Part shown: positions 36,774 through 41,611 of the stretch, in pieces
Numbering within the stretch: position 1 is the first letter of the stretch
Layout of the letters: every line of letters starts with the position of its first letter
Notes under the pieces: model-generated
Database searches by the model: none
The model's input: the letters and a program-made list of their open reading frames with translations, nothing else
Told to the model about the DNA's origin: nothing
Position numbers and translations under genes: made by a program
Origin: Chloroflexota bacterium
Lineage (GTDB): Bacteria; Chloroflexota; UBA5177
DNA length: 46,417 nucleotides
NCBI GenBank assembly: GCA_025966365.1
Contig: JAICWV010000010.1
Location: 1-46,417 of the forward strand
Direction of reading: 5' to 3'

Positions 36774-36884
36774 GGCCCACTCCGCCTCTCAGCACCTGAG
36801 GGCAGCATACTTGATCCCGCCCCAGGTTGCACAGGTCGGCACCCCTGACTCGTGTTCTAGTGCATCCGTCCTGTCCCAAAATGT

Positions 36885-36913
36885 TTGACAGACGGCGATT
36901 CCTCTGGTACGCT
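36885..36913 (+). promoter_or_regulatory. Promoter of lexA
   Basis: A perfect -35 TTGACA (36885-36890), a 17-nt spacer and a weak -10 TACGCT (36908-36913). The weak -10 lies within the palindrome at 36909-36925, which would let a bound repressor block RNA polymerase. Confidence 0.6.
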
Positions 36914-36925
36914 TGGGACAAGCGT
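36909..36925. promoter_or_regulatory. Candidate LexA operator (palindrome over the lexA -10 box)
   Basis: ACGCTTG-GGA-CAAGCGT is a perfect inverted repeat with 7-bp arms. A related half (TGTCCCAA, 36872-36879) lies upstream as the inverted copy of TTGGGACA (36913-36920). GTTCTAG occurs at both 36854-36860 and 36924-36930. It differs from the Gram-positive GAAC-N4-GTTC box. Confidence 0.5.
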
Positions 36926-36949
36926 TCTAGGCACTGGAAAGGGACTGGC

Positions 36950-37591
36950 ATGAGGAGCACAGGCGAGCGAATGCGGCAGCGCATTCTGGAGACAATCGCC
37001 GAGCTGACTGCGGAAAACAACCGGCCGCCGACCAACCGGGAGATCGGCCAGCATCTGGGGGGCAAGTCAACCGGCCATATCGACTATCATCTGCGCATCC
37101 TGCGCGAGCAGGGAAAGATTCACCACGACGCCAAAAAGAGCCGAGGCATCGCCGTCGTGGGCGCAGGCAATGGACTGGAAAGCGAGCCGGTGCCGTTCCC
37201 GGGACGACAGGTCCGCGTGGTCGGCACCATTGCGGCCGGCCGGCCCATCGAGGCGGTGCTCGATCCGGACATGCACGTGACCGTACCCGGCGTCGTGGGG
37301 GACAACCTCTTCGCGCTGCGTGTGCGCGGCACCTCGATGATCGAGGATCTGATCGACGATGGAGATATCGTCGTCTGCAGGCAGCAGAACAACGCGGATG
37401 ACGGCGACACGGTGGTGGCCCTCATTACCAGCGGCCCGTCCGAGACTGGCGAAGCGACACTCAAGCGGTTCTACCGCGAGCGAGACCGAATTCGTCTCCA
37501 GCCGCGTAACTCATCGATGCAGCCCATCTACGTCGGGCCGGACGAGGTGACTATCCAGGGCAAGGTAGTAACCGTCATCCGCGAGATGTAG
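36950..37591 (+). CDS. lexA: LexA repressor / SOS self-cleaving regulator
   Basis: The 213-residue protein has an N-terminal winged helix (residues 1-65; TNREIGQHLGGKS then HIDYHLRIL) and a C-terminal S24 peptidase-like domain. The self-cleavage bond is Ala96-Gly97 in GTIAAGRP, and the catalytic dyad is Ser129 (RGTSMIED) and Lys172 (EATLKRFYRE). RecA-stimulated cleavage would release SOS genes. ATG 36950 follows GGAAAGGG and is downstream of the promoter; a longer frame extends through the promoter and is rejected. No recA or other SOS gene is in the window. A palindrome over the -10 suggests autoregulation. Confidence 0.93.
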   Translation: MRSTGERMRQRILETIAELTAENNRPPTNREIGQHLGGKSTGHIDYHLRILREQGKIHHDAKKSRGIAVVGAGNGLESEPVPFPGRQVRVVGTIAAGRPIEAVLDPDMHVTVPGVVGDNLFALRVRGTSMIEDLIDDGDIVVCRQQNNADDGDTVVALITSGPSETGEATLKRFYRERDRIRLQPRNSSMQPIYVGPDEVTIQGKVVTVIREM

Positions 37592-37675
37592 GTTTCGAGC
37601 TCCTACGCCATACGGTAGCCGAGGGCTTCAGCCCGCAGTGCAGCGGAAGGCAGTGTACCCCTGCGGCCCTGCCGC

Positions 37676-39097
37676 TTACCGCAGCGACGAAGGCAGGATA
37701 TCCAGCTGATCGCGATACTTCGCGACGGTGCGGCGGGCCACGCTGTACCCATACTCTTTCAGCCGATTCGCGATTTCCTGGTCGGTCAACGCCGTCTCCT
37801 CGTGATCGATCATCTCCTTGATGATGTCCTTCACGCTGAGGGAGGCGGTAAAGAAGTTACTGAAGGGGATGACCTCCCCATTCAGCAGCATCACGTACTT
37901 TGCCGCCGTGGCCCGACTCACCGTGGACTCATGGATGCCCGTCTCCTCGGCCAGCATGGCCCGGGTCAGCGGCTTCAAATGCCGAACTCCGTGACGAATA
38001 AAGTCTTCCTGATGCCGGACCAGGTAGTCTGTGATCTTCTGCATGGTCTGCCGGCGCTGGTTGATGTTGGCGATGAACATCCGGGCGCGCGACACATAGT
38101 GCTGGATGTGCTCCCGGTCCTCGTCGGTGTACTGGCTCACATTGCTGCTCACCTGAGACAGAAGCTGCTGGTACATACCGTTCACTGAAAGGCCGAAGCG
38201 GCGGGACTCCACGACCTCAACTTCCAGTCCTTTCTCCCCTTCAGTGATGATGACATCGGGCATGACGTATCCCTGAACCGGCCGGGGGCCGGACCGGGTG
38301 GGGACGCTGGGATCCGAGCCCTGCGCGGGAAACGGGTTGAGCTGGGTCTTGATGAAGTCCCACGCTTCCTCTACCTCCGCGGTATCGGTGCCCATCTGCT
38401 GCGCGATCCGGTTGAACTTATGCTTGCCCAGATCTTCGAGATAGTCCTCGACCAGCCGGATCGCCAGTGGGTGCTCGGTGCCCTGTGACTCGAGATATCG
38501 AAGCTGGAGAATCATGCACTCTCGTACATCCCGAGCGCCGATGCCAGGTGGATCCAGGCTCTGCAGGAGGGTAATGACCTCCTCGACTTTCTCCGGCTCG
38601 ACATTGAACTCCGAGCACACCTCATAGGTCGAGCAGCGAAGGTATCCGTCGGCGTCCAGGCTGCCGACCAGATATTCCGCGATCGGCATATCCTGCGGGG
38701 GCAGAATCGAACCCAGGTCACGGAGCAGCCGCTCTTCCAGCGTCATCTGGGCGGCGACCAGCGTGAGCGGATCGAACTCGTCATCGCGAGATGCTGTCGG
38801 GCTATTCCAGGCCAGGTTCTCGAGATATTGCTCAGTCGGGTCTGGCAGGCTTTCCGGGGTGGTGGTGTCTTCCTTCTTCCGCGCACACCGCGAGCAGACC
38901 TCTCCCTCGATCGGCTGCCCGCACGTGGGGCAGATTACCAGGTCTACCTGATCGAGAGCCGGGTTCTCACTGATCTCGGTGGCGACTGCGTCCTGCAGCT
39001 CCTGTGAAGACATTTCCAGGATGTGATTGGCGGCGATAAGGCGGGGAGACACGCGGGTCTGCATCTCCTGCTGAACATCCTGATTCATCTCCAACAT
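37676..39097 (-). CDS. rpoN: RNA polymerase sigma-54 factor with an inserted zinc ribbon
   Basis: The 473-residue protein has sigma-54 region I (residues 4-50, LIAANHILEMSSQELQDAVA then ENPALD), a core-binding domain and a C-terminal DNA-binding part. That part has the HTH (LAEETGIHESTVSRATAAKY) and an RpoN box (ARRTVAKYRDQL, near residue 455). Region II instead carries a four-Cys ribbon, CPTCG...CSRC at Cys56, 59, 68 and 71, which is not standard. It should direct transcription from -24/-12 promoters with an AAA+ activator, none of which is encoded here. AAGGAG lies 11 nt before the ATG; it is just downstream of gyrA. Confidence 0.92.
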   Translation of the reverse strand: MLEMNQDVQQEMQTRVSPRLIAANHILEMSSQELQDAVATEISENPALDQVDLVICPTCGQPIEGEVCSRCARKKEDTTTPESLPDPTEQYLENLAWNSPTASRDDEFDPLTLVAAQMTLEERLLRDLGSILPPQDMPIAEYLVGSLDADGYLRCSTYEVCSEFNVEPEKVEEVITLLQSLDPPGIGARDVRECMILQLRYLESQGTEHPLAIRLVEDYLEDLGKHKFNRIAQQMGTDTAEVEEAWDFIKTQLNPFPAQGSDPSVPTRSGPRPVQGYVMPDVIITEGEKGLEVEVVESRRFGLSVNGMYQQLLSQVSSNVSQYTDEDREHIQHYVSRARMFIANINQRRQTMQKITDYLVRHQEDFIRHGVRHLKPLTRAMLAEETGIHESTVSRATAAKYVMLLNGEVIPFSNFFTASLSVKDIIKEMIDHEETALTDQEIANRLKEYGYSVARRTVAKYRDQLDILPSSLR

Positions 39098-39169
39098 GCT
39101 GCGTATGCTCCTTGAGGGTAGGAGGAAAGAAGGTCCCCAACAATTTCACCTTAGCAAATCGCCTTCGGG

Positions 39170-41611
39170 CTAGAGCTCGACCTCTGCGGCATCCAGTGTG
39201 GCCATCGAGGTGACGGTGTCCCCCTTGTTCAGACGCATCACGATCACCCCCTGGGTGGGCCGGGAGATCTCACGGATGCTCTTCACATCGGTCCGAGTTA
39301 CCAGACCTTCGGACGACATCATGATCACTTCCGGATCGTCTCCGTCCAGCACGCGGGAAGCCACCAGATCGCCCGTCTTTGCCGTCAGCTTGACCGCGGC
39401 AATACCCTGGCCGCCGCGTGACTGCACCCGATACTCGCGCAAGGGCGAGCGCTTGCCGTAGCCCCGCTCGGTGACGACCAGCAAGTCCGTGCTTTCCTCT
39501 GTCACCAGGTCCATTCGGATCACCGAATCGCCGTTGCGCAGCCGGATGCCGCGTACACCAGCGGCGTCTCGCCCCATGGAGCGAAGCTGTGTCTGCGGGA
39601 AGCGAATGGACATGCCTTTTCGGGTCACCAGCATGATCTGCTCGCTGCCGGAGGCGTCGGTCACCCAGGCCAGCTCGTCGCCTTCATCCAGGATGATGGC
39701 GCGCAAGCCGTTGCGCCGCACGTTCTTGAACTGATCCAGGGCTGTCCGCTTCACCGTGCCGTTGGTGGTGGCCATCACGAGAAAACCGTCCTGCTTCCCG
39801 TGTTCGGTGGTCAGAACCGCCGAGACTTTCTCATTGGGATCCAGCTGAACCAGGTTGGCAACAGGGGTCCCCTTGGCCGTCCTGGTCGCTTCAGGCACGT
39901 CATAGACGCGCAGCTGGAAGACACGGCCGCGGTTGGTGAAGAAGAGGATGTTGTCGTGGGTGTTGGTGACAAACAGGCGCTCGACGGCGTCCGCGTCGCG
40001 CGTGACCATGCCGATAATGCCCTTGCCGCCGCGGCGCTGCGGCTTGTAGGTGGTGCTTGGAATGCGCTTGATGTAGTTCTTGCGGGTCATGGTGACCACG
40101 ACTTCCTCGTCCGGCACGAGATCTTCTTCGGTAAAGTCGCCCGCTTCCTCGCGCATGATTCGCGTGCGGCGCTCGTCGCCGTACTTGTCTCGCACCGCCT
40201 TCATCTCGTCCTTGACGACTCCGTCGATCTTCCGCGGACTCGAGAGCAGATCTTCCAGACGGGAGATGGTCTTGAGAACCTGGTTGTATTCGTCGATGAT
40301 CTTCTGCTGCTCCATCGCTGCCAGGCGGGCAAGCTGAATGGCCAGAATGGCCTTGGCCTGGACCTCGGTCAGCGAGAAGAGCTTGATGAGGTTTTCCTGG
40401 GCCGCATCCTGCGTCTGGGATTGCCTGATGGCCCGAATTACTTTGTCGAGGTTATCCAGGGCGATCTTCAGCCCTTCCAGGATGTGCGCCCGCTCCCGCG
40501 CCCGTTGCAAGTCATACTCAGTACGCCTGCGAATGACCAGACGACGGTAGGCGAGGAAGTGCCGGAGGATCATGTCCAGGCTGAGGACGCGCGGCTGACC
40601 GTCTACCAACGCCAGCATATTGAGCGAGTAGTTGGTCTGCAGCGGTGTGTGCTTGAAGAGCTGGTTGAGGACAGCTTTGGGCTGGGCCTCCCGCTTGAGC
40701 TCGATGACGATGCGCATGCCCTGGCGGTCCGTCTCGTCGCGAAGATCGGCAATGCCCTGGATCTTCTTGTCGCTGACCAGGTCGGCGATCCGCTCCTGCA
40801 GCGTGGCCTTATTGACCATATACGGGATCTCAGTGAAGACGATGGACCAGCGGCCGCCGCGTCCCTCCTCCAGGTGATGGATGCCGCGGATCGTGATACG
40901 GCCATGGCCGGTTCCGTATGCCGTGTCGATTCCCTCGCGGCCTAGAATCACGCCGCCGGTGGGGAAGTCAGGACCGCGCACGAACTGCGACAGATCCGTG
41001 TTGGTCGCATCCGGATGGTCGATCATGTGCACAGCCGCGTCAATGACCTCGCGCAGATTGTGCGGCGGGATATTGGTGGCCATGCCGACGGCGATGCCGG
41101 ACGAACCGTTGATGAGCAGATTCGGCACTTTGGCCGGCAGCGTCTCCGGCTGGACCGCGCTGCCGTCATAGTTCGGATACCAGTCGACCGTGTCCTTCTC
41201 GATGTCGGCCAGAAGCTCGTCTGTCAACGCAGCCATGCGCGCCTCGGTGTAGCGCATGGCAGCAGCGGCGTCACCGTCGACGGAGCCGAAGTTGCCCTGG
41301 CCATCGACCAGCGGATAGCGCATGTTGAAGTCCTGAGCCATGCGCACCAGCGTGTCATACACCGCGGCATCCCCGTGCGGGTGGTACTTGGCGAGGACTT
41401 CACCTACCACTGCCGCGCTCTTTCGATAGCTGGATCGCGCCGTCAGGTTGATTTCGTGCATCGCCCACAGAATCCGGCGATGAACAGGCTTCAACCCATC
41501 CCGAACATCCGGGAGTGCGCGTGACATGATTACGCTCATGGCGTAATCGAGATACGATTCGCGCATCTCCTGTTCGATATTGATCGATTCTATGCGGCCG
41601 GCGTTATCCAT
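39170..41611 (-). CDS. gyrA: DNA gyrase subunit A
   Basis: The 813-residue type IIA topoisomerase subunit has the breakage-reunion domain with the active-site Tyr121 ([11 protein letters not shown]). The quinolone-determining region is [20 protein letters not shown] six-bladed C-terminal domain carries the GyrA box QRRGGKG (near residue 535), which marks gyrase rather than topoisomerase IV. With GyrB (not in the window) it introduces negative supercoils. Position Ala82 corresponds to the quinolone-binding Ser83 of E. coli. A good promoter lies at 41658-41687, and gyrA precedes rpoN by 72 bp. Confidence 0.95.

Follow-up and report, generated by a model that had tools for sequence, protein, structure and literature searches.

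Gene content and domain organization of the locus

The window analysed here is a stretch of 46,417 nucleotides from a Chloroflexota genome (3.6 Mb, 97 % complete), and its open reading frame at 37676-39097 is a complete sigma-54 factor (RpoN), the only RpoN of that genome. In a profile search the protein scored 313 bits against TIGR02395 (cut-off 277 bits), and the Pfam domains follow each other in the order AID (PF00309, residues 6-49), CBD (PF04963, residues 113-309) and DBD (PF04552, residues 330-473). Searched against species genomes, it most closely matches three Chloroflexi contigs and one labelled Proteobacteria, the latter sharing 76 % identity with it and evidently belonging to the same group. 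The features of the locus are as follows.

36827..37591, plus strand: lexA, downstream of rpoN and convergent with it (TIGR00498, 154 bits)
37676..39097, minus strand: rpoN (sigma-54), 473 residues (TIGR02395 and three Pfam domains in order)
37679..38110, minus strand: DNA-binding domain, residues 330-473 (PF04552, E-value 5e-35)
37712-37738, minus strand: RpoN box ARRTVAKYR, residues 454-462, inside the DNA-binding domain
37826..37864, minus strand: shortened linker from the HTH to the RpoN-box domain, residues 412-424 (13 residues in 94/94 Chloroflexota)
38171..38761, minus strand: core-binding domain, residues 113-309 (PF04963, E-value 5e-44)
38744..38884, minus strand: remaining acidic region II (equivalent of RII.2/RII.3) including DDEFDP, residues 72-118 (charge, conservation)
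38885..38932, minus strand: four-cysteine ribbon or knuckle CPTCGQPIEGEVCSRC, residues 56-71 (four Cys in 94/94 phylum members; DZR E-value 3e-4, below the gathering score; AF2 peptide)
38933..39097, minus strand: region I (activator-interacting) and start of the linker, residues 1-55 (PF00309 at residues 6-49, E-value 4e-10)
39170..41611, minus strand: gyrA, directly upstream of rpoN on the same strand with a gap of 72 bp (NCBIfam gyrA, 1134-1192 bits)

In the window's family, gyrA adjoins rpoN in the members sampled and lexA does so in most of them. The arrangement of gyrA-rpoN followed by convergent lexA (36827-41611) is kept within this family, and the other sampled families have no gyrA or lexA beside rpoN. 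In one close relative (G026; L009/L002) an in-frame TAG splits rpoN, which reflects either a sequencing error or decay.

Conservation of the four-cysteine ribbon in Chloroflexota

The ribbon begins straight after the end of region I (...NPALDQVDLVI) and consists of CPTCG (residues 56-60) and CSRC (residues 68-71), placing cysteines at positions 56, 59, 68 and 71, as the earlier note had described. On searching 400 genomes of the same phylum, 124 were found positive for RpoN, and from these loci together with 80 further stretches we derived 94 non-redundant representatives (less than 85 % identity, at least 430 residues), paralogues included, which fall into 33 families when the family numbers of the search tool are counted by eye on the tree. 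All four cysteines are present in 94/94 proteins with the pattern C-x2-C-x7-13-C-x1-2-C; 69 of them read C-x2-C-x8-C-x2-C, the remaining loops range from 7 to 13 residues, and the second pair is C-x-C in three. The columns of Cys56, Cys59 and Cys71 are 100 % conserved and that of Cys68 is 97 % conserved, the remainder being a register shift. Outside the ribbon, cysteine makes up 0.6 % of residues in these proteins, and most other region II columns stay below 50 % identity. In genomes with two or three RpoN, each full-length copy examined has kept the ribbon. Since the ribbon is present in close as well as distant Chloroflexota homologues, in all of those examined, the concern that it might be absent from close homologues falls away. 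On these alignments the four-cysteine ribbon is not a chance feature.

The few other constrained positions of the element are informative as well. A glycine follows the first CxxC in 84 % of the 94 proteins, and amongst the 69 with a loop of eight residues this glycine is present in 67 and a hydrophobic residue occupies knuckle position 8 in all 69. At the level of sequence, fixed cysteines combined with the glycine and the hydrophobic position are what a metal knuckle would look like.

Descriptions of sigma-54 present region II as a variable part of the protein that is not essential. As it is considered dispensable in other bacteria (PMC12316311), one might regard the ribbon as a relic that was gained once in the ancestor of the phylum and is neutral today. 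Neutrality is very improbable, because three cysteine columns are invariant and the fourth merely shifted in register across a divergence as deep as the phylum, amid neighbouring columns that have been randomised; in terms of these sequences the reading is already contradicted. This deep bacterial phylum has fixed a four-cysteine element at the start of region II, keeping it in all 94 proteins and across duplications of the gene, and because the element has never been lost, a stretch supposed to be filler in sigma-54 probably does a job in Chloroflexota.

A second clade mark lies nearer to the C-terminus. A linker of 13 alignment residues joins the HTH to the RpoN domain in 94/94 Chloroflexota proteins, as against 24-25 in most of 13 outgroups, so that in the alignment this short linker (11-12 residues fewer than in most other RpoN) is a further characteristic of the Chloroflexota protein.

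Position of the ribbon within region II

The ribbon aligns with residues ~53-68 of the RpoN of E. coli and Klebsiella, and in E. coli sigma-54 region I comprises residues 1-56 and region II residues 57-120 (PMC7057263). It spans about 16-20 residues of region II, the total length of which has a median of 67 residues in Chloroflexota as compared to 70 in E. coli. The ~45 residues behind it carry a mean net charge of -7.7 and include DDEFDP, where D109-P110 is conserved at 83-88 %. The proposal that a ribbon stands in place of region II therefore holds for the first part, approximately RII.1, however the acidic remainder and the total length have been retained. As region II is unchanged in length and the remainder is still acidic, the ribbon is best placed in the RII.1 slot.

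In the E. coli holoenzyme the downstream-DNA channel is occupied by RII.1 (PMC7057263); RII.2 limits entry of the template and RII.3 lines the path of the RNA (PMC7057263, PMC6028918). A location of the ribbon in this channel is nevertheless not assured, because the closed complex of E. coli has a mobile RII (PMC7057263).

Distribution outside the phylum and ancestry

The ribbon is absent from 12/12 RpoN in plasmid and phage records, which belong to Alpha- and Gammaproteobacteria, Bacteroidota, Bacillota, Fusobacteriota and one phage clone, and from all 23 RpoN-like open reading frames with an N-terminus from viral contigs. A query comprising region I and the ribbon detected no RpoN in plasmid records, the matches being DUF3667 proteins only. 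The view that ordinary region II lacks such motifs is borne out for these non-Chloroflexota sequences. In the tree, a single branch (SH-aLRT 99) divides the 94 proteins with the ribbon from 11 RpoN without it. The sole ribbonless RpoN attributed to Chloroflexota (L113, genome G359) was rejected as a genuine member of the phylum, as it lies on a 6-kb contig and groups with Azospirillum (alphaproteobacteria), and is a probable contaminant.

Considering its phylum-wide presence, its absence elsewhere in the sample and the single tree branch, the ribbon dates back at least to the last ancestor shared by the Chloroflexota RpoN sampled, barring transfer within the phylum. Relative to the plasmid, phage and viral-contig RpoN compared, it appears to be a mark of the sampled Chloroflexota.

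About 20 IMG/VR viral contigs (L261-L283, 7-58 kb) carry closely related ribbonless sigma-54 open reading frames of ~430 residues with region I intact. They may represent a sigma-54 family carried by viruses or, alternatively, stretches of host DNA that entered the collection.

Promoters and activators

The remainder of the sigma-54 system was surveyed in 151 relatives. Of the 52 genomes with RpoN, 49 have a PF00158 domain scoring above 190 bits, as against 0/99 of those without, by counts made by eye in which two genomes with spurious or decayed RpoN matches (G028 and G085) were entered as lacking RpoN. The window's genome encodes one clear NtrC-type activator (REC-AAA+-HTH) with the loop GSFTSA. 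This loop is largely confined to the window's family. Other genomes with a ribbon RpoN have GAFTGA/GSFTGA or AFTDA, so a changed activator loop was rejected as a general partner of the ribbon. The AAA+ relatives in genomes devoid of RpoN have no GAFTGA-type loop.

The motif TGGCAC-N5-TTGC is found at 23 sites in the window's genome against 8 for the reversed control, and its excess is 2.75-fold over the 52 genomes with RpoN (1249 vs 454) as compared to 1.16-fold over the 99 without (689 vs 594). The difference between the two groups is significant (Mann-Whitney p 3e-8), in a test that ignores shared ancestry. Four other members of the window's family show little excess (13:9, 14:8, 14:15 and 11:8). 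Altered promoter spacing from the shorter linker was also considered and is not seen, the standard N5, which is the spacing counted, being enriched. Within the RpoN box itself, RRT and KYR are invariant in 94/94 Chloroflexota proteins. Nothing in this survey supports the suggestion that a metal-bound element could affect the handling of activator or promoter. Conventional forms are seen for the RpoN box, for the -24/-12 sites and for the activators with their GAFTGA-like loops.

In the window's genome, possible sigma-54 sites lie just upstream of open reading frames that were assigned by eye as PRC-barrel-, DoxX- and other stress- or envelope-like (L191-L193, L205, L210, L212). Separately, one Chloroflexota genus (G085, G052, G117, G133) is without an intact RpoN: in G085 what is left of rpoN is interrupted by two TAA stops (L114), the PF00158 proteins of G117 and G052 have no GAFTGA loop, and G052 retains an excess of -24/-12-like sites (29 vs 4).

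Predicted fold and zinc binding

The Pfam family DZR is matched by 43 of 64 ribbon segments at E-values of 0.01 or lower, and the window's ribbon itself scores 21.4 bits, under the gathering cut-off of 27.3 bits. An AF2 model of the isolated peptide (residues 44-82, 39 residues) contains a hairpin (53-55/62-64) followed by a helix (69-79), with pLDDT of 84-89 across residues 54-73. A Foldseek search of this 39-residue model against the PDB gave no significant match (best E-value 1.6), and many of the matches are zinc fingers. The full-length AF2 model was discarded as too poor (mean pLDDT 56, ribbon blocks 36-50), since its alignment held only four sequences, all close relatives. The four-cysteine element of Chloroflexota sigma-54 is predicted with high confidence to bind zinc.

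Comparable elements are known elsewhere. DZR (PF12773), Zn_Ribbon (PF13240/PF13248) and the knuckle of ribosomal protein bL32 share CxxCG-x7-CxxC and, as far as the peptide model predicts it, the hairpin with the present element at weak sequence similarity, however the Chloroflexota element is a single half-ribbon inside a sigma factor and the window's segment falls below the Pfam gathering score. With canonical sigma-54 of E. coli and Klebsiella (PDB 9q91, 7qv9, 5ui8) the protein shares region I, the core-binding domain, the HTH and the RpoN box, and the system shares the -24/-12 sites and an AAA+ activator with a GAFTGA-type loop; it differs in having a four-cysteine ribbon as RII.1 and a linker shorter by 11-12 residues, at an identity of about 26-32 %.

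Proposed role and alternative explanations

We propose that RII.1 of Chloroflexota sigma-54 has been turned into a zinc knuckle of the C4 type with a structural role, by which RII.1 would acquire a fixed fold adjoining region I. This is the reading that we favour, at about even odds. RII.1, which connects region I to the remainder of region II, would form a folded C4 knuckle made up of a beta-hairpin and the start of a helix, in which the four cysteines would hold one Zn. Such a module would be compact and nearly neutral, with a tether of about six residues linking it to region I, and, judged from the homologous E. coli holoenzyme (PMC7057263), it may sit in or at the downstream-DNA channel. 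There it could help to set where region I lies and to maintain the closed, inhibited state, thereby affecting how stable the closed complex is, until the activator remodels region I, DNA loads and the ribbon would be displaced. A location in the channel together with a role in the closed-to-open transition falls slightly short of an even chance. A stronger version, in which the folded zinc module is a metal-held gate that the activator evicts from the downstream-DNA channel, tying initiation to the zinc or redox state, is rather unlikely; its counterpart, by analogy, would be region 1.1 of sigma-70.

The ribbon could instead be a docking surface for a partner such as an activator, a polymerase-associated protein or a protecting factor like HP0958/FlgZ. 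Zinc ribbons are frequent protein-protein modules, and in six of the RpoN-positive genomes searched rpoN and activator genes lie within ~5 kb, suggesting a dedicated pair; the activator does not, however, adjoin rpoN in most of the genomes listed. HP0958/FlgZ (DUF164), the RpoN-protecting protein of H. pylori, requires a CXXC zinc ribbon for RpoN stability (PMC3372290), so that there too a ribbon is tied to RpoN function, but it acts in trans as a separate protein whereas the Chloroflexota ribbon lies within RpoN. The Chloroflexi counts in the HP0958 paper give no strong association of DUF164 with RpoN. As the cysteines are invariant and the loops vary at all but the cysteine, glycine and one hydrophobic position, which is unlike a conserved binding face, a fold is favoured over a sequence-specific docking face, and we regard docking as a doubtful alternative.

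All-Cys knuckles are mostly structural, which speaks against a zinc or redox switch, in which the Cys4 site would lose Zn upon oxidation or metal depletion and thereby switch sigma-54 activity. Such a switch would be well served by four cysteines near region I, since refolding at this place would affect inhibition, and would fit the possible sigma-54 sites preceding genes assigned by eye as envelope- and stress-like (PRC-barrel, DoxX). Nevertheless, the ribbon is kept without exception in 33 families and in paralogues, which is unexpected for a niche-specific sensor; its constancy in all families disfavours such a sensor, and the switch is improbable.

The structural knuckle would provide a direct handle on the role of RII.1 in holding the closed complex, as the ribbon fold could be abolished through mutation of the cysteines. 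RII density is weak in the E. coli closed complex, and a stable RII.1 fold should show in cryo-EM. No description of a ribbon in sigma-54 was found in the open PMC literature, outside of which most subscription papers lie, and we found no earlier report of it; Francke et al. (2011) noted RpoN in some Chloroflexi and nothing further (PMC3162934). For the identification of Chloroflexota RpoN, the four-cysteine ribbon offers a simple marker.
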